Shown here piece after piece: positions 22,253-37,205 of a stretch of DNA of 64,000 nucleotides (positions within the stretch are counted from its first letter, which is position 1; the number at the start of each line of letters is the position of its first letter). This DNA comes from Stigmatella erecta (GTDB lineage Bacteria; Myxococcota; Myxococcia; Myxococcales; Myxococcaceae): the NCBI RefSeq assembly GCF_900111745.1, contig NZ_FOIJ01000002.1:248001-312000 (forward strand), read 5' to 3'. The translations under genes and the position numbers were made by a program. The notes under the pieces were generated by a model that saw nothing but the letters and a program-made list of their open reading frames with translations, was not told the DNA's origin and made no database searches.

Positions 22253-22788
22253 AGCACCGCGGGTTGCTGCTGCTTGCCGCCCTCGCCGCTCCCGGGTGCA
22301 TCCGCGCTCCGGAGATCGTCATGGTGGATCGCGCGACAGCGCTCGAAGAGCAGGCCTCGGGATCGTTCCAGGACGTGGAGCGGCGGCTTGCTCGCGCGGG
22401 GATGAGCCCGGCGCCGGTGCCGCTCACGCCCAACCAATTGGAGGATCTCGGGCTCCAACCCACGCCGTTGGTCGAGAACATGGGCAAGACGCAGGCGGAC
22501 CGCGTCGACGAGCTGCTGCGGCGCCACTGCGTGGGCGAGGGGCGGGACGGACTGCTCGTGGACACCCGGCACAGTTGTCAGGCCGGACGCCTGTCGGCGG
22601 ATGACGTCGCCCTGGTGGAGCGAGTGAACCGGGCCCGGCTGCAGCTCTGGCAGTGGATGCAGACGGTCCGCCCCGGCGTGCCGGCAGGGTCCCTGCGGCA
22701 GCGTTGGCGGCAGCTCCATGTGGAGGGGGTGGTCTGCGGGGGCTGGGTCGAGTCCGATGACGGCACCTGGGGAGAAAAGAAGTGCTGA
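22249..22788 (+). CDS. Lipoprotein with YdbL/DUF1318-like C-terminus
   Basis: A 179-residue lipoprotein (signal MKHRGLLLLAALAAPGC, lipobox APGC at residue 17). The C-terminal ~60 residues (VALVERVNRARLQLWQWM ... LRQRWRQLHVEGVVCGGWVESDDGTWGEKK) resemble the DUF1318/YdbL pattern by eye: the LVxRxNxAR helix and the ending with xxxGxWxxK. In E. coli ydbL is encoded with ydbH (AsmA-like) and ynbE (small OM lipoprotein). Here the upstream partner is AsmA-like, and the lipidated N-terminus might stand in for YnbE; that is inference. Both junctions are overlapped (4 bp upstream, 7 bp downstream), indicating one translation-coupled operon. Confidence 0.72.
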   Translation: MKHRGLLLLAALAAPGCIRAPEIVMVDRATALEEQASGSFQDVERRLARAGMSPAPVPLTPNQLEDLGLQPTPLVENMGKTQADRVDELLRRHCVGEGRDGLLVDTRHSCQAGRLSADDVALVERVNRARLQLWQWMQTVRPGVPAGSLRQRWRQLHVEGVVCGGWVESDDGTWGEKKC

Positions 22789-25700: not shown

Positions 25701-26246
25701 TTGGGCTGGCGGCGCGCCACCCCCAGGCACGTCATGCGGTCCTATCGCATCATCGCCGCAGGACTGCGCGCCAACGCGGAGACCCGGCTCGGACGCCTGG
25801 AGGTTGCCGCCCGCGCGCTTGAACAGCGGCGTGCACTGTTCCTGGACCAGTTCGACGAGCTGGATCGCGATCAGGACGCCAGCGCGGTGACGTTGGCGGA
25901 GCTGAGACTGGCCGAGAATGCCGTGGATCGCCGGGACATGGCGCAGGCGGCCCGCTGGTTGGGCGAGGCGATCGCGCATGCCGACACCCTCCTCGAACGC
26001 ACCCACGCGCCAGCCGATGCCGGCCAGCTGGGGGCGCTCTGGTTCGCGGCGCAGCTGCACGCAGGGGGGAGCACGCAGCTTCCTTTCGACGTGCCCGAGC
26101 GCCTGGGCCAGGCGCATCGCGCCCTCCTCGGCCAACGCTCTCCTGCCTGGCGTTCATACCTGGCGTGGTTCGAGATCTATCTGGCCCTCGGTGCGAGCGG
26201 AGCGCTCCCCGTGGAGCCCCAGCCGCACTCACCCGAATCTTTTTGA
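22782..26246 (+). CDS. Exported beta-propeller (PD40/TolB-like) and TPR protein
   Basis: A 1154-residue exported protein. It begins with GTG preceded by GGAG and overlaps the lipoprotein gene by 7 bp. The signal peptide is LFLVLAVLFACATWAQ. Residues ~40-350 are PD40/TolB-type propeller blades (LEPDGKRLIFVSNRNIATEIYAQEL, ISPDGKQLLYISFRDQ, LSPDGRWLVYV, FARDGRSLYVVQFF). The remaining ~780 residues are helical TPR-like repeats (GLLHTQVGNFHIALEYLEQRDKF, LYNLAAGRFKRALALYDRELSLLDAG). Its position as third gene of the AsmA-like operon suggests a periplasmic scaffold for the same envelope machine; no enzymatic motif is visible. A bidirectional terminator follows directly. Confidence 0.85.
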   Translation: MLTPRGGLFLVLAVLFACATWAQDDENDGGLRTPTRLTVGMGDHFLGQLEPDGKRLIFVSNRNIATEIYAQELEGGRERRLFDEGADVTWPRISPDGKQLLYISFRDQAGGQLCVRNLPAADERRCLEEESSAVQAEWIDASHVALVSRAAIQGDLHLSRVDVAHTLSAKPLLERNLTSPTLSPDGRWLVYVPIERAVPQVGPGFAARAARHLEALRLDRPGAAPIPLALDLPGQTGQPVFARDGRSLYVVQFFTDSNGDEVIDASDSGVLFRVPFAAEREDAPELAAASSPDQLTSVAWNCEYPAPAAESLIATCSRDRTLDVYQLPLDGQVPSNWDVPRLNEELRMVGRRADQLLLYRQRLLLEARPKPRRLLMMRLSYLHLAFEDFDAAGFYARGMRSVNDPATAGLAEPLQILIDHRRAMKERERGQMVDELREDERQRMAALEPTAAPSPPSTVFQHVVRSELAEDAGDFTRARQELEAAQLTDTTPRAVLEAWFERADSLYRKLDDREALVEAGRRLSLNKVFHEDDQLDFARAAVRALYRGRPYAQADAAMAQALASAPAGSAYAFALEMGRHVNAVHDERPPRPVRDALIAFYQQQKDPLRRRALVQDAVERAASLGADGVMEALATVYVDDTPAGTEERRRAERLFRRAMTGRAYRRLGRQRLDNARADFDLVTQRTGSLESAVESINLRLRAGTSPEVVEKEVTTTAAKMAEPLAHFVKAYLMACQLPGLDDEAHARTVSAAVKELRVSWKELKSQRAVQALSGAIHHEDFLRRQDPAAAERANRHYLIALDLVRNNVRYRAMILGALGLLHTQVGNFHIALEYLEQRDKFPSVDNAAGLAVSLARARALLHTGREEEAAKTADQALARLDATPELAGFGLLALDRAALYNLAAGRFKRALALYDRELSLLDAGARDQEGLRNRLVVRLARSAAALGEEQPQRALEDLAIVDRDLADPAVQATLGWRRATPRHVMRSYRIIAAGLRANAETRLGRLEVAARALEQRRALFLDQFDELDRDQDASAVTLAELRLAENAVDRRDMAQAARWLGEAIAHADTLLERTHAPADAGQLGALWFAAQLHAGGSTQLPFDVPERLGQAHRALLGQRSPAWRSYLAWFEIYLALGASGALPVEPQPHSPESF

Positions 26247-26326
26247 AGGCAACGAGGGCCAAAAAAGCCCAGCACCCCGTTCAGGTTGCTGAGCTTTTGA
26301 ATGTGGAGGCGGCGGGAATCGAACCC
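26245..26326 (+). repeat. Left copy of tmRNA 3' end plus terminator (putative attL)
   Basis: 82 bp nearly identical (~92% by eye) and in the same orientation to 37123-37205. The last 28 bp (26299-26326) are identical and include the T-arm and acceptor end of tmRNA (minus-strand GGTTCGATTCCCGCC then GCCTCC). Beyond 26326 similarity stops; no tag reading frame or other tmRNA part is present. This is the pattern left when an element integrates into the 3' end of ssrA. Confidence 0.8.
26261..26298. terminator. Bidirectional terminator after the propeller/TPR gene
   Basis: The stem 26266-26277 with 26284-26295 (AGCCCAGCACCC/GGTTGCTGAGCT) has one mismatch and G-T pairs. It is followed by TTTT on the plus strand and by TTTTTT on the minus strand. 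It is a diverged copy of the tmRNA terminator at 37.14 kb and now ends the 18.6-26.2 kb operon. Confidence 0.75.
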
Positions 26327-26660
26327 TCCTCAAGGCGGAAGCAAAACCCTAAGCAGGCCGCGCTGTTACCGGCTAACGCATTGCCCTCACACCGTATCGT
26401 TCCCCGCTCCGTCCCGTTGCGTCCCGCCTCGTCCCGTTCAACTCCCCGCTGGAGGGTCACACTGGGGGCACATGCGGCCGAACAGGGGCAATTTGCTTGG
26501 ACGCAAGCGGCCTGAGTTCCCCGGTCTCCCAGGGCTCCCCGTCAGCGTCCCTCACCTCCCGCTCTGCTCCCGCCCGCTACGTCCACCAGGGCTCCTGTCC
26601 TTCCTATGCTCGCGGGCCCTGGCCCTATGGATGGGCCAGCCGGAATGCTATCAGGGCGGC
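26327..26660. other. Non-coding left end of the island
   Basis: No gene supported. Translations such as those containing GIEPSSRRKQ are the well-known artefacts of reading through a tRNA/tmRNA end. The stretch includes tandem CGTCCCG-like units at 26400-26440 and the first copy of the 78-bp repeat (26535-26612). Confidence 0.6.
26535..26612 (+). repeat. 78-bp direct repeat, copy 1
   Basis: Matches 33455-33532 at 77 of 78 positions (only GTCCACC versus GCCCACC differs), in the same orientation, ~6.9 kb apart. It lies 49 bp before the NTase pseudogene. It could be an internal recombination site or the scar of a nested insertion. Confidence 0.85.
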
Positions 26661-27452
26661 ATGCACCACCTCCCTGACCGGCACCGTGAATTCCTCACCT
26701 CCGCGCTCGACGCCTGGAAGGCGCACCCTGGAATCCTGGGCGTCCTGGCGGGTGGCTCGTACCTGAGCCGGAGCATGGATGCGTTCTCCGACCTGGATCT
26801 CGTGCTGGTGGTCTCGGAGGCGCTGCGGGCCACCATCGCCCAGGAGCGCCTCGGGCTCGCGGGCGGCGGGGCCCCTGCTGCAAGGCTTCACAGGGGAGCG
26901 GCGAGCCCCGGCTGCTCATCTGCCTCTATGGTCCGCCGCTGCTGCATGTCGACCTGAAGTTCCTCTCCGTCGCCGAGCTTGACGTGCGCATCGAAGATCC
27001 GGAGGTGCTCTTCGAGCGGGGTGACACCATCACGGAGCGCCTGCGCTCGACGCGGGCGAGCGCCCTGGAGGCGCCATCGCCACAGTGGGTGGAGGACCGC
27101 TTCTGGGTGTGGATCCACTACGGCATCGACAAGGTGCGGCGCGGGGAGCTGTTCGAGTGCATGGACCTGCTGGCGCTCCTCCGGGCCCAGGCCCTGGCGC
27201 CGCTGCTCCACCGCCCGCCTGGACGGTGGACTCTGGCGGGGAGTGCGGCGGCTCGAAGCCTCGCGCCAGGCTCCGGCGCTGGCGCGAGTCTGTGCGCGCC
27301 ATGATGCGCAGGAGTGCCTCCAGGCGCTGGTGGCCGCAGTCGAGGTCTACACCACATTGAGAGGGGAGATGGGTATGCCGGGAGCCCCCCAGCCCTCACC
27401 GGCGGAGCCCGTCGTCCGCGCCTCCCTGGCGGAGATCCGCGCAGGGAAGTGA
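26661..27452 (+). pseudogene. Nucleotidyltransferase-like gene broken by frameshifts
   Basis: The ATG at 26661 opens HHLPDRHREFLTSALDAW, then the nucleotidyltransferase active-site pattern GGSYLSRSMDAFSDLDLVLV (GGS then DxD). The frame changes near 26865 (GPLLQGFTGERR), again near 26895 (GEPRLLICLYGPPLLHVDLKFL through GIDKVRRGELFECMDLLALLRAQAL) and again near 27225 (VRRLEASRQAPALARVCARHDAQECLQALVAAVEVYTTLR), ending at 27452. The four pieces together make one ~260-residue protein like uncharacterised NTP_transf_2 proteins. Three frameshifts make decay more likely than sequencing error. Confidence 0.7.
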
Positions 27453-27552
27453 AGACGCCTCAGGCTTGAGGTGCGCGCGCATCCTGGTGGTGCGGGACAT
27501 AGGATGAATTCACGCTCTTTTCGCCCAGGCCCCGCACCGTTAGGTGTAGGCC

Positions 27553-28503
27553 ATGACAACGAAACAAGCCCCCATTCATTCTGGTTTTGGCGCGCGGACG
27601 ACAGCGCGTGAGGTCCTTGGCAGCCGCAGGCTCGATGGCCTCATCGCCGTGGTGACCGGCGGGTACGCGGGCGTCGGACTCGAGACCACGCGCGTGCTCT
27701 CGGCCGCGGGTGCGACGGTCATCGTTCCGGCCCGGACGCCCGACAAGGCGCGCACGGCGTTGGCGGGGCTGGAGCGCGTAGAGCTCGAGCGTCTCGACTT
27801 GTTCGAGCCAGCCTCGATCGATTCCTTCGCCGCGCGATTCCTCGAGTCCGGCCGCCCCATTCACATGCTCTTGAACAATGCGGGCATCATGGCCACTCCG
27901 CTCGTGAGGGATGCCCGAGGCTTCGAGTCCCAGCTCGCCACCAACCACCTCGGCCACTTCCAGCTCACGGTCCGCCTCTGGCCCGCGCTGCGAAAGGCGA
28001 ACGGTGCACGCGTGGTCACCCTGTCGTCGCGAGGCCACCGCCGCGCCGCGATTGACTTCGAGGACCCGCACTTCGAGCGGCGCCTCTACGACAAGTGGGT
28101 CGCCTACGGCCAGTCGAAGACAGCGAATGCGCTCTTCGCGCTCGCGCTCGACGTGCGCGGAGAGCCGCATCGCATCCGCGCGTTCTCCGTGCACCCCGGA
28201 GCCATCCTGACGGAGCTGGTGCGCTCGCTGTCAGACGAGGAGCTGCGCGCCATCCAGGCTGCGGGCCCAGGCGACTTCTACAAGACCCCGGAACAGGGCG
28301 CAGCCACGAGCGTCTGGTGCGCGACGAGCCCCCAGCTCGACGGCCTGGGCGGCGTGTACTGCGAGGACGTGGACCTCGCCGAACCGGTGCCCGCGGATTT
28401 CCCGGAGCAACGGGGGGTGAAGCCGTGGGCGAGGGATCTGGAGCTGGCCGAGCGCCTCTGGACGAAGAGCGAGGCGTGGACCGGCGTGAAGCTCACCCCG
28501 TGA
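27553..28503 (+). CDS. Short-chain dehydrogenase/reductase
   Basis: A 316-residue SDR oxidoreductase using NAD(P)H on an unknown alcohol or carbonyl substrate. The cofactor motif is TGGYAGVGLET (about 36-46), followed by the structural LLNNAGIM, the catalytic Ser in VVTLSSRGHRR and YGQSK (YxxxK). After the active site come SVHPGAILTEL and GGVYCEDVDLAEPV, the layout of the retinol-dehydrogenase/WWOX-like SDR group. It is convergent with the XRE-family gene, overlapping it by 11 bp. It is the first intact gene of the island. Confidence 0.92.
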   Translation: MTTKQAPIHSGFGARTTAREVLGSRRLDGLIAVVTGGYAGVGLETTRVLSAAGATVIVPARTPDKARTALAGLERVELERLDLFEPASIDSFAARFLESGRPIHMLLNNAGIMATPLVRDARGFESQLATNHLGHFQLTVRLWPALRKANGARVVTLSSRGHRRAAIDFEDPHFERRLYDKWVAYGQSKTANALFALALDVRGEPHRIRAFSVHPGAILTELVRSLSDEELRAIQAAGPGDFYKTPEQGAATSVWCATSPQLDGLGGVYCEDVDLAEPVPADFPEQRGVKPWARDLELAERLWTKSEAWTGVKLTP

Positions 28504-29341
28504 GCCGGAACAGCTTGCGTGCGCGCGCCGTGCTCTCTCCGGGCTGCGGCGAATAGAGCGAGACGCGGAGCTCCCGGCCATCGGGCTCCGCATGCATGAG
28601 CGTGACGTGCTCGAACTCGATCACCCCTACTCCCGGGAAGACGAGCGCCTTGCGTCCCTCGGGAACCTGATCCATCACAGCGTGCTCGCTCCAGAAGCGC
28701 GCGAACTCCGGGCTGACGCTCGCCAGCTCCGCCGCGAGCGCATCGAACTCCGCCCTGTCGGCGGCGCGCGCGGCATCAAGGCGAAAGCCCGCAACGGACC
28801 TGCGCGCGGCGCCCTCCCAGTCCGGCATGAGCGCGCGCCGCTCGGGCTGCGTGAACATCGACCACAGTCCGTTGCGCCGCCCGGCGGGAAGCTGTCCGTA
28901 ATCCCCATAGACGATCGCCGCCGCTGCGTTCCATGCGAGCACGTCCCACCGCCTCGTCGAGACCAGCGCCGGATAGGGATGGGCATCGATGACCCGCTGG
29001 AGGGTGTCACTGACCGCCTGGGGAGCGCGCGAGGGACGGGACGCGGGACGGCCGTGCGCCAGCTCGAAGAGGTGCGCCCGCTCCGTGGGCGTCAGGCGGA
29101 GCGCTCGGGCGAGGCGCTCGAGTAACGGCTCCGACACGTGGATGTCCCGTCCCTGCTCGAGCCACGTGTACCAACTCACGCCAACGTCCGCGAGAACGGC
29201 GACCTCTTCGCGGCGCAGGCCCGGCGTGCGCCGTCGGCGGCCGTCCGGCAAGCCCACATCCGCCGGACGAACGCGCGCACGGCGGCTGCGGAGGAACCGC
29301 GCGAGCTCGTCGCGCTGCGGAATACGTGGCCTTTCCGTCAC
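28493..29341 (-). CDS. XRE-family regulator with MmyB-like ligand-binding domain
   Basis: A ~282-residue transcription factor. The N-terminal helix-turn-helix (about 8-85) contains RTPGLRREEVAVLADVGVSWYTWLEQGRDIHVS. It is followed by a PAS-like MmyB/MLTR ligand-binding domain (HPYPALVSTRRWDVLAWNAAAAIVYGDY ... FEHVTLMHAEPDGRELRVSLYSP). Such regulators usually repress a neighbouring SDR gene and respond to small lipophilic ligands, so the convergent SDR is the obvious target. The start is a GTG at 29341 (VTERPRIPQRDELARFLRSRR), where homology-like sequence begins; the frame is open further upstream but is not convincing. Confidence 0.85.
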   Translation of the reverse strand: MTERPRIPQRDELARFLRSRRARVRPADVGLPDGRRRRTPGLRREEVAVLADVGVSWYTWLEQGRDIHVSEPLLERLARALRLTPTERAHLFELAHGRPASRPSRAPQAVSDTLQRVIDAHPYPALVSTRRWDVLAWNAAAAIVYGDYGQLPAGRRNGLWSMFTQPERRALMPDWEGAARRSVAGFRLDAARAADRAEFDALAAELASVSPEFARFWSEHAVMDQVPEGRKALVFPGVGVIEFEHVTLMHAEPDGRELRVSLYSPQPGESTARARKLFRLTG

Positions 29342-29785
29342 GAAGCCACACTTTACGCGAAAGGCGGCACCTGGGGGAGAAGCGCGAAGCTCCCGCGAAC
29401 CTGGAGCCAGGGGATGCGGAACCCTCCTGTGGAAAGACTTGTGGCTGCGCTCGTAGCCCATGAAGCCACGAGGACGCGGCGCTTGGCACCCGATGTGTCG
29501 ATCTGGATGTCCGAGATGCGCGAGTTGGCCAGCGCCACACCGAACACCGACACCCCGTAGTGCGCCACGGATCAGCTGGCGCACCACCTGTCCTTCAGGC
29601 GTCACCTCCACCAGCCCGCGCGAGAATCGGCTGAGCCAGGGCTGAGCCCGCGCTGTGTAAGCACAAGGTCCAATACCCATGACCTGACACTTTCGGTACA
29701 GGTGGCCGCGCTGACATGGCCCAGCACCTCGTCTGGCTTCTGGCCGTCTGGGCCGTTCCCCAGCATGCACTCAGCGCCACATCGC
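29342..29785. other. Island spacer without a supportable gene
   Basis: Several short minus-strand frames (for example 29353-29568, and VEVTPEGQVVRQL around 29600) look like scraps of a decayed surface protein, but none is long or consistent enough to call. The 55-bp repeat copy at 29641-29695 is here. The Kelch gene promoter presumably lies near its right end. Confidence 0.5.
29641..29695 (+). repeat. 55-bp imperfect direct repeat, copy 1
   Basis: Similar to 31851-31905 at about 85% by eye, both containing GCTGAGCCCGCGC, then ACAAGGTC and CCATGACCTGACACT. The two copies flank the Kelch lipoprotein gene in the same orientation. Confidence 0.7.
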
Positions 29786-31651
29786 ATGAAAAACCTGCCG
29801 AGCTCACTTCTTGCCTTCTGCTTGACGCTTGCAGTCACTGGCTGCGACTGCTCTTCATCGTCATCAGACGATTTCTCACTCAGTGTCGTCCTCGCGGAGA
29901 CCCGCATCTCCGCAGGGATGGAGACCACCGCGAAGGCCCAGCGGGTCTATGACGATGGCCGCGCCGTCGACCTCGACGCCTCCACTCCACGGCAATGGAC
30001 CTCGTCCGCTCCTCAAGTGGCCTCCGTCGAACCACAACCGGACGGCACCGTCAAAGTGACGGCGCTCAAGCCCGGTAGCACCACCATCACAGTCAACTCG
30101 GACGGAGCCTCGGGCGAGGCCACCCTCGAGGTCACCGACGCTCGCCTCCTCTCGCTGCAGGTGTCACCCACCAGCGCCTCCGTGCTTGCAGGCCTCACGC
30201 AGCAGTTCACCGCCCAGGGCACCTACGGCGACGGCACCACGCGCGACGTGACGAGCAGCGCGACGTGGACCTCGAGCAACACCGCCATGGCCACCGTCAG
30301 CAGCACGGGCCTGAGCACCGGCGTGGCCGCGGGTGGGCCTATCACCCTCACCGCCACCCTGGGTGGCGTGAGCGGCACGGCTCAGTTCACCATCACCCCT
30401 CCCCCGCCCGTGCTCATCTCCATCAAGATCACCCCCGCGACGGCTTCGGTGCTCCTGGGCTCGACACAGCAGTTCACCGCTCAAGGCAGCTACAGCGACG
30501 GCACCACGAGCGATGTGACGAACAGCGCGACGTGGACCTCGAGCGACGCCGCCATTGCCACCGTGAGCAGCATGGGCCTGGGCACCGGCGTGGCCGGGGG
30601 TGGGCCCGTCACACTCACCGCCTCCCTGGGTGGCGTGAGCGGCACGGCTCAACTCAGCGTCAAGGGGTGGACGTCCGCAGGGTCCATGTCCACGAGCCGC
30701 TACAACCACACCGCCACGCGGCTGGCCTCGGGCAAGGTGCTCATCGCTGGGGGGCGCAATGGGACGACCCCCCTGAGCAGTGCGGAGTTGTACGATCCAG
30801 CTACCAACTCCTGGTCTCCAGCCAAGGCCATGGCCAAGGGCCGCTTCGCTCACGCCGCCCTATTGCTCGACGATGGTTACGTGATCGCCACTGGGGGCGT
30901 CGGCGCCCTGACCAGCACGGAGATGTATGATCCGGCGAGCGACTCCTGGTTTGTGGTCAGCCCCATGAGCGGGGGCCGCTCCGGTCACACCATGACGCTG
31001 CTTCCCTCGGGCCAGGTGCTCGTCACCGGCGGCACCGATGGCAACAGCGCTCTAGCCACTGCGGAGGTGTTCGAGCCGCTCGCCAACCTTTGGGTTCGGT
31101 CCAGCACCATGAGCACCGCCCGCTTCAACCACACGGCCACATTGCTCTCCTCGGGCAAGGTCCTCGTCTCAGGGGGGTCCAATGGCTCCGGGAGCTTGAG
31201 CAGCGCCGAGGTGTACGACCCGGCCACCAACTTGTGGACTCCAGTTGCCACCATGGTGACGCGCCATAGCCTTCACGCCGCCACGCTGCTCTCCTCGGGG
31301 AAGGTGCTCATCTCAGGAGGGACATCGCTCACCGATCCCTCTTCCTCTGAGCTGTATGATCCAGGCGCCAACGTCTGGTCCACAGCGGGCGCCATGGTCG
31401 CAGGCCGCTCCCGCCACACCGCCACGCTGCTCGATTCGGGCCAGGTGCTCGTCGCGGGGGGCGACGGCAGCAGCTATTACAACACTGCGGAGTCGTACAA
31501 CCCAGCCACCCCTTCCTGGTCCGCAGCCTTCCCCATGGCCGTGCCTCGCAGCCAGCACACCGCGACGCTGCTGACCTCAGGCAGGGTTCTCGTCGTGGGT
31601 GGCGAAGATGGCACCCATTCCCTTGCCACGGCGGAGATGTACGCGCCCTAA
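29786..31651 (+). CDS. Ig-like and Kelch-repeat lipoprotein
   Basis: A 621-residue exported lipoprotein. The signal MKNLPSSLLAFCLTLAVTGC ends in a good lipobox. After a Ser-rich linker come an Ig-like segment (about 30-115), two tandem Big_2-type Ig domains (about 118-205 and 207-292; each with SVLxGxTQQFTAQGxYxDGTT and SSxATWTSS), then six Kelch/galactose-oxidase-type blades (about 295-621) with the periodic RxxHTATLLxSGKVLxxGG ... AExYDPATxxW pattern. It is probably a surface-exposed propeller involved in adhesion or carbohydrate binding. Similar proteins are numerous in myxobacteria. The start is set by the signal peptide. Confidence 0.92.
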   Translation: MKNLPSSLLAFCLTLAVTGCDCSSSSSDDFSLSVVLAETRISAGMETTAKAQRVYDDGRAVDLDASTPRQWTSSAPQVASVEPQPDGTVKVTALKPGSTTITVNSDGASGEATLEVTDARLLSLQVSPTSASVLAGLTQQFTAQGTYGDGTTRDVTSSATWTSSNTAMATVSSTGLSTGVAAGGPITLTATLGGVSGTAQFTITPPPPVLISIKITPATASVLLGSTQQFTAQGSYSDGTTSDVTNSATWTSSDAAIATVSSMGLGTGVAGGGPVTLTASLGGVSGTAQLSVKGWTSAGSMSTSRYNHTATRLASGKVLIAGGRNGTTPLSSAELYDPATNSWSPAKAMAKGRFAHAALLLDDGYVIATGGVGALTSTEMYDPASDSWFVVSPMSGGRSGHTMTLLPSGQVLVTGGTDGNSALATAEVFEPLANLWVRSSTMSTARFNHTATLLSSGKVLVSGGSNGSGSLSSAEVYDPATNLWTPVATMVTRHSLHAATLLSSGKVLISGGTSLTDPSSSELYDPGANVWSTAGAMVAGRSRHTATLLDSGQVLVAGGDGSSYYNTAESYNPATPSWSAAFPMAVPRSQHTATLLTSGRVLVVGGEDGTHSLATAEMYAP

Positions 31652-31973
31652 GCCACAGCGTCTCTACCAGGACTGATGTGCCGTGTACCCGAGCGGATAC
31701 CGAACGGTGGACAGGACATCATCCTGGACACGAGCTGTTCCCCTTCCACGGCGTCCACGACACATGTCGCCGCGTTGTGCATCCGGGCCCGCTGACGACA
31801 GGTGCCGCGCCTCCGCGATGGCCTCGGCGGCGCCGTCGTAGGCATCCTCCGCTGAGCCCGCGCGGCGTAGGTACAAGGTCTAATATCCATGACCTGACAC
31901 TCTGAATAGGTTCCTCGCTCGCGACAAATGGACCTTCGAGCGATCCACGCTCGAAGAAAAGGAGCCTGTGGCG
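31652..31973. other. Spacer between Kelch and DUF1254 genes
   Basis: No gene supported on either strand. It contains copy 2 of the 55-bp repeat (31851-31905) and ends with the ribosome site AAGGAG (31959-31964) of the DUF1254 gene. Confidence 0.55.
31851..31905 (+). repeat. 55-bp imperfect direct repeat, copy 2
   Basis: Second copy of the repeat found at 29641-29695. Together they flank the Kelch gene, as would follow from duplication or insertion of a gene cassette. Confidence 0.7.
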
Positions 31974-33353
31974 ATGAGCGCTGGTTTGTACGAGACCGCA
32001 TACGAGATCGGCTGCGAGGGATATACATATCTCTATCCCATCGTGTTGATGGACGTGACGCGCCGGCAGATGACGAACGTCAAGGAGATCGACCTCGCTA
32101 CCTGGCGAAGCCCGGCCAACGTGTTCATGAATAACCCGCGTTTCCCGGGACCGGAAGACCGCACCGTGGTGCGACCCAACTTCGACACGCTCTATTCGAG
32201 TGCGTGGCTCGATCTCGTGCGCGAGCCCATGGTCATCAAGGTCCCTCCGGCCGATGGGCGCTACTACCTCTTGCCCATGCTCGACATGTGGACGGACGTC
32301 TTCACCTGCCCCGGCCCCCGAACGACGGGGACCGCGGCCCAGCAGCTCGTCATCGTCGGCCCGGGGTGGAGCGGGACGATCAACCCGGCCCTGAAGCTGC
32401 AACGGATCGACGCGTCGACGCCGTATGTCTGGATCATCGGACGAACGCAGTGCGACGGTAGTGAATCGGGCGGTGCATCGAGCTACGCCAGCGTGCACGA
32501 GTTCCAGAAGGGCCTCGAGATCATCCCTTACTCCGCCTACGCGGCCGGGCAGCCGGCGCCGCCGCCCGTCGGGTCAGACACCGATGACATCAGCCGCGAA
32601 GAGCCGTTGGTGCTCGTAGAAAAGATGACTCCCGAAGAGTTCTTCGCCTATGGCGCAGACCTGCTGCGCCAGAATCCTGCGCACTTCAATGACTACCCCA
32701 TTCTCGCGCGTCTGGCGCAGGTAGGCTTCGTGGCGGGCCAGCCGTTCGACCTGAACGCAGCCCCGGCGATCGTGCAAAAGGCCTTCAAGAAAGCGGTCCC
32801 CGACGCCCTCGCCCGGATGAAGGAAAAGCAGACCTCCCTCACGCCGCTGACGAATGGCTGGACATACGCGAACGATCTGGTGGGGACCTACGGGACGAGC
32901 TACCTCCGCCGCGCGATCGTTGCCCTGATCGGACTGGGCGCCAATCTCCCGGAGGACGCAATCTACCCGGTCGCCTACAATGACGTGGACGCGGATTCCA
33001 AGCTCACCCCGCTGGACAGCGCCAAGCATTACACGCTGCGCTTCGAGGCCAACAGCCTGCCACCGGTGAACGCCTTCTGGTCCGTGACGCTGTACGACGA
33101 GCAGGGATTCCAGGTCCCGAACTCCATCAACCGCTTCTCGCTGGGCACGCGAAACAACCTGGCCCAGGACCCCTCCGATGGCTCCGTGACGGTGTACGTC
33201 CAACGATCCATGGACGAGACCGATTCGAGGCGGTCGAACTGGCTGCCGGCACCACAGCAGGGCGCGTTCAACCTCACCATGCGGCTGTACTCGCCGAAGC
33301 AGGAGGCGGTCAATGCAGATTGGCACCCGCCTCCGATCATGCGAGCGGAGTGA
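31974..33353 (+). CDS. DUF1254/DUF1214 protein
   Basis: A 459-residue protein of unknown function. The N-terminal DUF1254 part (about 10-160) has YTYLYPIVLMDVTRRQM, then RTVVRPNFDTLYSSAWLDL and RYYLLPMLDMWTDVFTCPGPRTTGT. The C-terminal DUF1214 part (about 340-455) has AKHYTLRFEANSLPPVNAFWSVTLYD then FQVPNSINRFSLGTRNNL and the ending LRLYSPKQE-like MRLYSPKQEAV. The ATG at 31974 lies 9 nt after AAGGAG and is preferred to a GTG 6 nt upstream. No signal peptide is visible. Family members occur widely beside oxidoreductases and regulators, but no reaction is established. Confidence 0.88.
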   Translation: MSAGLYETAYEIGCEGYTYLYPIVLMDVTRRQMTNVKEIDLATWRSPANVFMNNPRFPGPEDRTVVRPNFDTLYSSAWLDLVREPMVIKVPPADGRYYLLPMLDMWTDVFTCPGPRTTGTAAQQLVIVGPGWSGTINPALKLQRIDASTPYVWIIGRTQCDGSESGGASSYASVHEFQKGLEIIPYSAYAAGQPAPPPVGSDTDDISREEPLVLVEKMTPEEFFAYGADLLRQNPAHFNDYPILARLAQVGFVAGQPFDLNAAPAIVQKAFKKAVPDALARMKEKQTSLTPLTNGWTYANDLVGTYGTSYLRRAIVALIGLGANLPEDAIYPVAYNDVDADSKLTPLDSAKHYTLRFEANSLPPVNAFWSVTLYDEQGFQVPNSINRFSLGTRNNLAQDPSDGSVTVYVQRSMDETDSRRSNWLPAPQQGAFNLTMRLYSPKQEAVNADWHPPPIMRAE

Positions 33354-33454
33354 TCCTCGATCGCTCGGTGCGCCGGGCACATCACCAAGGTGGGCAGGCG
33401 TGTGTCTGCTGGAGATGAGAGGCTTCTGCGCCGGCTCGGCGTGCGGCGAATGGC

Positions 33455-33532
33455 CTCCCCGTCAGCGTCCCTCACCTCCCGCTCTGCTCCCGCCCGCTAC
33501 GCCCACCAGGGCTCCTGTCCTTCCTATGCTCG
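33455..33532 (+). repeat. 78-bp direct repeat, copy 2
   Basis: Partner of 26535-26612 (one mismatch). It lies 102 bp after the DUF1254 gene and 57 bp from the broken 3' end of the FAD monooxygenase, suggesting that an insertion or deletion event ended here. Confidence 0.85.
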
Positions 33533-33588: not shown

Positions 33589-35971
<2,383 letters not shown>

Positions 35972-36112: not shown

Positions 36113-37121
<1,009 letters not shown>

Positions 37122-37122
37122 T

Positions 37123-37205
37123 GAAGGAAACGAGGGCAAAAAAAAGCCCAGCAACCCGTTCAGGTTGCTGGGCTTGTGAATGTGGAGGCGGCGGGAATCG
37201 AACCC
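37123..37205 (+). repeat. Right copy of tmRNA 3' end plus terminator (putative attR)
   Basis: Matches 26245-26326. Here it is joined to the complete tmRNA gene, with 28 identical bp at 37178-37205. The toxin remnant stops exactly at its outer edge. Confidence 0.8.
37136..37175 (-). terminator. tmRNA rho-independent terminator
   Basis: A perfect 12-bp stem (AGCCCAGCAACC with GGTTGCTGGGCT, loop 6 nt) is followed on the minus strand by a run of eight T residues (37145-37138). It starts 5 bp after the mature tmRNA 3' end. Confidence 0.9.

Follow-up and report, generated by a model that had tools for sequence, protein, structure and literature searches.

The IS91-family element IS801 of Pseudomonas syringae occurs as fragments of 229, 360 and 679 nucleotides (nt) that share one right terminus, lack a left end and were ascribed to one-ended transposition, and full IS801 copies also recruited adjacent DNA, as stated in the available excerpt of that study (PMC3189936). 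Excerpts of other studies describe two sequential right-hand ends (oriIS) around the captured gene in the case of ISCR28 and sul4 (PMC12772301), the island GIsul2/CR2-sul2, which bears an integrase and an ISCR-type unit beside its attachment (att) site and enters the 3′ end of guaA (PMC9376610), and islands recorded by Islander that carry a regenerated transfer-messenger RNA (tmRNA) gene and a displaced 3′ fragment at their ends (PMC4383910). Here we analyzed a 64,000-nt stretch of the Stigmatella erecta genome (contig NZ_FOIJ01000002.1, positions 248,001 to 312,000; hereafter the window), in which a 78-base-pair (bp) direct repeat is, with high confidence, the right-hand (oriIS-type) terminus of an IS91/ISCR-like HUH rolling-circle family of myxobacteria. 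Both copies are eroded remnants of a single transposon end, of a type already known, and do not form a private cassette boundary. Genomes, contigs and loci are designated below by G, C and L numbers, G000 being S. erecta itself.

Comparison of the window with itself delimited the direct repeat to 26532−26612 and 33452−33532, an 81-nt match with 98% identity (79 of 81 bases alike) and two mismatches at positions 3 and 51. The initial annotation, made from the letters of the window, had reported 77 of 78 matching positions at 26535−26612 and 33455−33532; this count holds, the shorter range leaving out the first of the two mismatches. A search of the S. erecta genome with the left copy retrieved the right copy at E = 2.5e-33, which excluded a chance likeness of the two. 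Copies of the repeat varied in their leftward extent and shared one right-hand stop base. To define this boundary, we aligned 74 distinct copies, after dropping those less than 40 bases from the locus end, those starting within ~10 bases of the locus start and identical duplicates. In the 61 copies that reached the end (query position ≥136), conservation fell from 0.82−0.98 across the final 19 bases, which end ...CTTCCTATGCTC, to 0.30−0.48 past that point. The last matching base of the pair (G at 26612 and 33532) therefore lies outside the element, the right ends being 26611 and 33531, and the right terminus of the resulting 80-nt unit is written ...CTATGCTC. Its terminal 22 nt agreed with the oriIS 22-mer of ISCR1 given in the excerpt of PMC13023784 at 13 of 22 end-aligned positions, a level reached or exceeded by 20 of the 127,956 22-mers of the window.

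The longer copies run into a reading frame corresponding to the C-terminus of an IS91-type transposase. Among the 48 copies with enough flank (51 loci were named), a transposase fragment was located upstream within 1.2 kb on the same strand in 21 and on the opposite strand in 2, compared to 2 same-strand and 1 opposite-strand fragments downstream. The first transposase residue present in the 21 upstream fragments ranged from 1 to 448, with 18 of them starting at residue 236 or later and 16 extending to residue 470 or more. At L132, a window-type right end was accompanied by transposase residues 2−474 in broken frames, with the terminus ~200 bp past the transposase. The same spacing of ~200 bp was observed for the diverged right end of L134, L135, L136, L138 and L140, which ends ...CCGCCTATACGC; the right ends of these sister subfamilies were 65−74% identical to the window end where alignable, and the terminus of L133 differed.

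The complete transposase of L136 (474 amino acids, aa) matched Y2_Tnp (PF04986) with 100.6 bits against a cut-off of 20.9 and Zn_Tnp_IS91 (PF14319) with 63.2 bits against a cut-off of 26.3. The better of its two NCBIfam matches, ISCR_clade_Ia (NF052416), scored 300.2 bits and missed the cut-off of 925, and the IS91 equivalog (NF033538) scored 103.5 bits and missed the cut-off of 125; with both scores below their cut-offs, the element was not filed under either group. The family resembles ISCR1 and ISCR clade Ia in its HUH/Y2-type transposase with a zinc-binding domain and in its right end, whereas its score lies far below the clade Ia cut-off. In all five aligned transposases, HFH at residues 191−193 and Tyr308 were invariant, and we take these to be the HUH motif and the catalytic tyrosine; presumably, these enzymes have one such tyrosine where IS91 has two. 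Membership in the superfamily rests on the domains and the anatomy of the element, and the myxobacterial family is predicted to transpose by rolling circle in the cell. No description of this rolling-circle element family in myxobacteria was found among the best-ranked literature matches.

Several results weigh against this assignment. A variant right end, ...CTATACGTC, shared no more than 5 of 22 end-aligned positions with the 22-mer of ISCR1; the two do have the 10-mer CTTCCTATAC in common. No conserved tetranucleotide of the GAAC/CAAG type was seen to the right of the terminus in the flanks of the aligned copies, no conserved hairpin was found (DNA folding z-scores of −0.02, 0.68 and 1.40), and no empty site was demonstrated. 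The 1.2-kb flanks used in the linkage count are too short to include the N-terminal ~100 residues of a transposase that has suffered no deletion. No complete transposase was seen together with a window-type end, the complete ones (L133−L136 and L138) belonging to sister subfamilies, and no intact element was found in the S. erecta genome, where PF04986 gave two partial matches. No transposase gene was found at either window copy.

At 26531/26532, the left copy (26532−26611, + strand; defined by the repeat search and the boundary alignment) abuts sequence from a different part of this element family. The adjoining sequence (26304−26531) showed 90% identity to the left portion of a copy on contig C27 of the same genome, which contains ~305 bp more before its right end, including transposase residues 1−44. 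The junction of the left copy coincides with the word GGGCTC (26532−26537), and GGGCTC stands at both edges of the additional ~305 bp in C27, so that the left element looks like a C27-type element after deletion between two such words. Judged by this comparison, 26304−26611 (+) is an internally deleted element composed of a 25-nt tmRNA T-arm core, an arm and the 80-nt right end, with the T-arm-like core (26304−26328, +) as its putative att core and left end. Copies retaining only ~44 N-terminal transposase residues also occurred at G002:C7 and G059:C1. One mini-element shared by these two loci and G000:C27 was considered and rejected: the deletion junctions differ, and the sequence after the ~44 residues is different in each copy, which therefore arose by separate deletions. 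The right copy continued leftward as element sequence to ~33391, with none seen further left, and represents a 141-nt, 5′-truncated right end of the same family (33391−33531, +).

How closely the two window copies are related was assessed among 53 copies covering nearly all 80 nt. CC at alignment columns 58−59 was found only in the two window copies, and FastTree placed them as sisters with an SH-like support of 0.83. The left copy also differed at 2 of 80 positions from the copies in G002 and G020, which made these as close to it as the right copy, and T at column 54 was common to the left copy and the G002 and G020 copies only. This modest and mixed evidence weakly suggests that the two window copies are each other's closest relatives.

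The unit is dispersed in S. erecta and well beyond it. In the 9.2-Mb genome (47 contigs), the left copy produced 17 matches at E ≤ 1, the weakest of which may be due to chance. Five were near-full, namely both window copies and those at C1:654013, C27:64930 and C20:109827 (94%), and partial or diverged copies were present at C6:392425, C26:6886 and C20:107297. A wider search with the right copy lengthened to 151 bases found matches in all seven genomes of the genus and in 22 of 58 sampled family genomes, representing 7 of 26 genera; at most 14 candidates were scored per genome, so that the counts in the 58 genomes are lower bounds. An exact 24-mer from the end occurred in 10 stretches of the genome collection, all myxobacterial (Archangium 3, Corallococcus 3, Pyxidicoccus 2, Hyalangium 1 and a metagenome-assembled genome of Polyangiaceae 1). 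A blastn comparison (E ≤ 1e-3) against 50,697 phage records and 72,556 plasmid records gave no match, and a phage- or plasmid-borne unit was rejected on these grounds. Eight right-end matches, some of them partial, followed one another on one strand over ~40 kb with other genes between them at L129 and L130 (G048:C74:50000−91427); this array is a large, naturally occurring counterpart of the window pair.

A one-ended rolling-circle origin of the direct pair is the explanation that we lean toward. Rolling-circle transposition would start at the right end and would often stop early or overrun the left end, leaving 3′-anchored, 5′-truncated fragments and carrying neighbouring DNA along. Repeated rounds, or capture of blocks that hold older ends, would generate same-orientation runs of right ends, of which the window pair would be one example that now offers a target for homologous exchange. 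An excess of C-terminal transposase sequence and the clustering of right ends in one orientation both point to this mode of movement. When the N-terminal 95 aa and the C-terminal 95 aa of the transposase served as queries in these 58 genomes under one common limit, 134 N-terminal and 568 C-terminal matches were obtained, the latter being a lower bound set by seven large genomes with only 88 candidates scored; one broken copy can contribute two matches to these counts. C-terminal matches outnumbered N-terminal ones in 37 genomes, the reverse was true in 2, and 19 were tied. The best N-terminal matches were nevertheless more conserved than the best C-terminal ones, and the truncation points of the transposase were ragged. 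Orientation was scored over 103 matches, 94 from the 58-genome search and 9 in G005 and G006. Right ends separated from their neighbour by less than 20 kb had the same orientation in 23 cases and the opposite in 2, compared to 7 and 13, respectively, for neighbours farther apart (Fisher p = 8e-5); one further same-orientation pair within 20 kb was dropped, its pieces having no overlap on the query. A contig-wide strand bias was rejected as the cause of the clusters, since the more distant neighbours on those contigs comprised 7 same-orientation and 13 opposite pairs, replication origins not having been located.

As with IS801, the fragments have one common right terminus and lack the left end; according to the excerpt of that study the IS801 fragments were caught in the act, whereas the myxobacterial family is known here from sequence. 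Our preference for a one-ended origin of the pair is tempered by three considerations. The pairs within an array are not independent, 12 of the 13 contigs concerned being wholly same-oriented, C-terminal fragments could have been kept or detected for other reasons, and most natural IS801 fragments were judged in the excerpt of PMC3189936 to be reorganisations rather than one-ended products.

The genes enclosed by the repeat were as listed in the initial annotation, which had proposed a recently moved cassette. In 96 family genomes including that of S. erecta (three candidates scored per genome, so that the matches are lower bounds), the interval 26613−33390 was nowhere matched as one block in the 95 other genomes; the matches were confined to four discrete segments from differing loci. 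Movement of the 6.9 kb as a single piece was rejected on this basis, and a recently moved cassette is not supported. The first segment (26619−27442, +), nucleotidyltransferase-like by the name given in the initial annotation and with broken frames, starts 7 bases past the left copy and is 80−81% identical to G033:C2, G013 and G048. The second (27474−29398) contains an SDR gene (27553−28503, +) and an MmyB-type regulator gene (− strand), both named from Pfam, and is 96% identical to G013:C1. The third (29626−31668, +) encodes a Kelch-repeat protein (Pfam; open reading frame (ORF) 29702−31651), with 29649−31660 being 91% identical to G006:C8, and the fourth (31851−33372, +) encodes a DUF1254/DUF1214 protein (Pfam; ORF 31968−33353) and is 93% identical to G020:C1, the segment common to G020 ending at 33372, to the left of the right copy. 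In G001 and G054, no more than a few kb separate the Kelch and DUF1254 pieces, which stand in reversed order. The repeat was not seen at the 23 loci of relatives that were fetched (L144−L155 and L157−L167), most of them with 1.5 kb of flank. The enclosed SDR, regulator, Kelch and DUF1254 genes differ from the resistance genes described in the cited ISCR cases; resistance genes as such were not searched for.

Two repeats internal to the interval were also noted. A 51-nt direct repeat with 88% identity (29641−29691 and 31851−31901) lies upstream of the Kelch and DUF1254 genes and recurs before the DUF1254 gene in G020 and before both genes in G054, possibly as a shared promoter or operator. Two 250-nt repeats with 82% identity (30146−30662) fall inside the Kelch gene, where Pfam shows Ig-like (Big_2) domains.

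To the right of the pair, a monooxygenase gene with the flavin adenine dinucleotide (FAD)-binding domain FAD_binding_3 (33594−33915, −; Pfam) has lost its C-terminal part. As the initial annotation had stated, the gene next to the right copy is truncated, and the fragment retains the first ~50 residues of FAD_binding_3. In a search that scored three candidates per genome, the region 33594−35908 was 88% identical to G076:C222, where an unbroken 374-aa ORF encodes the monooxygenase (FAD_binding_3, 99.8 bits), followed by aldo-keto reductase and LysR genes, the same neighbours as in the window; the window gene was considered cut at 33594 because homology to the intact gene stops there. G076 belongs to another genus and thus provides an intact homologue, not the allele that the initial annotation had hoped for. 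The break lies 62 bases from the terminus (with unassigned sequence, 33532−33593, in between) and not at it, which weighs against the favoured account. A recombination target beside a gene break is borne out in part: the repeat terminates a mobile element, and homology to the monooxygenase is lost close by. The initial annotation had set the cassette against a common dispersed repeat with no association to gene breaks. The first half of this description applies, dispersed copies having been found in S. erecta and in related genomes; the right copy is the one for which a link to a gene break was demonstrated.

The pair lies in an island at the tmRNA gene ssrA. The intact gene is located at 37182−37543 (−; ARAGORN; Rfam RF00023, 183.9 bits), and a terminator with the 3′ end of this gene (37140−37210, +) is repeated directly at 26261−26331 (+), a 71-nt match with 93% identity. 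These are the right and left attachment-like repeats of the island, and the T-arm core of the deleted element falls within the left one. An intact tmRNA gene and its displaced 3′ fragment as direct repeats mark such islands, as in the excerpted Islander account; unlike those islands, the window island yielded no recognised integrase gene in tblastn with the integrase of L140 over the window or in Pfam searches of selected island ORFs, and its integrase may have been lost. An Rfam scan of the window returned the tmRNA only. Among the ssrA regions of nine relatives, five (G001, G003, G006, G013 and G017) had an extra T-arm core in the same orientation within ~19 kb, G002 had one that points the other way, neither G004 nor G020 had any within ~19 kb, and only 437 bases existed on the core side in G005. 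In G003, a tyrosine integrase match stops ~60 bp from the tmRNA 3′ end, and the far core of G013 precedes an arm and transposase residues 1−306, an arrangement of which the window has a deleted form. At L078, L080, L082, L106 and L226, an integrase directly precedes the T-arm core and transposase sequence follows it. The link to an integrase at these loci resembles GIsul2, an integrase-bearing island with an ISCR-type unit beside the att site, with the difference that the excerpt places GIsul2 at the guaA 3′ end while the myxobacterial core is the tmRNA T-arm, the integrase standing directly upstream of core and transposase in some relatives.

Altogether, 65 distinct T-arm cores were collected, 26 in a tmRNA-type context and 39 in others; of the 39, at least three (L204, L206 and L207) belong to tmRNA genes from other families, with several more unclassified. 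We put forward, as an unlikely extension of the above, a composite element made of a tyrosine integrase, the 25-nt tmRNA T-arm as both att core and left end, an ISCR-like HUH transposase and an oriIS end, which would integrate at ssrA and spread elsewhere by rolling circle into same-orientation arrays, with the window pair as a decayed example.

Isolated 23−30-nt T-arm cores also occur in the S. erecta genome, for example at C19:48153, C20:149495, C6:383826 and C5:84877, where ARAGORN found no tRNA or tmRNA. The island end near the tmRNA (36104−37100) is 91−92% identical to the ssrA region of G002, and the DNA common to that region carries remnants at 36116−36505 and 36837−37154 (−) that matched, respectively, only the C-terminal part of the SitI6 immunity family, with 162.5 bits and over the cut-off, and the SitA6 polymorphic toxin lipoprotein family, with a sub-threshold 35.3 bits. 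Left of the island, the gene at 22782−26246 was found in five of six other genus genomes, always away from ssrA (~1.9 Mb from it in G003, on other contigs in the rest). The join at 26246−26304 is thus a rearrangement or an assembly join. Near the end of this gene, 42 bp are missing that three relatives have between GTGC words.

We assign a probability of about 0.78 to the whole favoured account, that is, an oriIS end, a deleted left element, a truncated right remnant and, less surely, one-ended movement. Possible, though doubtful, is that two unrelated old insertions decayed in place, their likeness reflecting low diversity of the family or gene conversion and the interval between them being accidental. 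That the left copy is as near to the G002 and G020 copies (2/80) as to the right copy and shares T at column 54 with them would fit such a history, as would the mosaic of four separately found segments; the CC pair unique to the window copies and their sister support of 0.83 speak against it, and the bias of 23 of 25 close pairs toward the same orientation in other genomes would be unexpected for insertions made independently. Another view is that the 6,920-bp unit 26612−33531 moved, or can move, as one rolling-circle unit from right end to left end. Its geometry, two direct right ends in sequence around enclosed genes, is that of ISCR28 and sul4 in the excerpt of PMC12772301. No match outside S. 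erecta spanned more than one of the four segments in the 96 genomes (three candidates scored in each), however, the fetched loci of relatives lacked such an end, and neither window copy, unlike ISCR28, was found with a transposase gene, which makes this explanation distinctly unlikely.

An integron attC-type site or a miniature element with terminal inverted repeats would be suggested by the length of the repeat and by its direct orientation around genes, as in a cassette array. The 80-nt unit folded no better than shuffled sequence on either strand (z = −0.02 and 0.68), one end is ragged while the other is exact, and the copies are linked to HUH transposase fragments, so that this identity is scarcely credible. 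A misjoin in the assembly at or near the repeats is very improbable: the gene at 22782−26246 does lie away from ssrA in relatives and the junction 26246−26304 ends in the repeated terminator and T-arm, whereas the two mismatches between the copies and their unlike flanks show that neither simply duplicates one contig end. A repeat left behind by an IS91/ISCR-like element, with its left copy deleted and its right copy truncated, is preferred to all of these.

Taken together, these results mean for annotators that the 6.9-kb interval is not to be named a transposable cassette. As a transposon-end remnant the repeat is ordinary, and its moderate interest lies in the family that it revealed. An odd repeat becomes a marker for a rolling-circle family in myxobacteria, in which 5′ truncation with one exact 3′ end, together with same-orientation clustering, constitutes evidence from natural genomes for one-ended rolling-circle movement, and the link between a tyrosine integrase and the tmRNA core suggests a mobile element with two modes.

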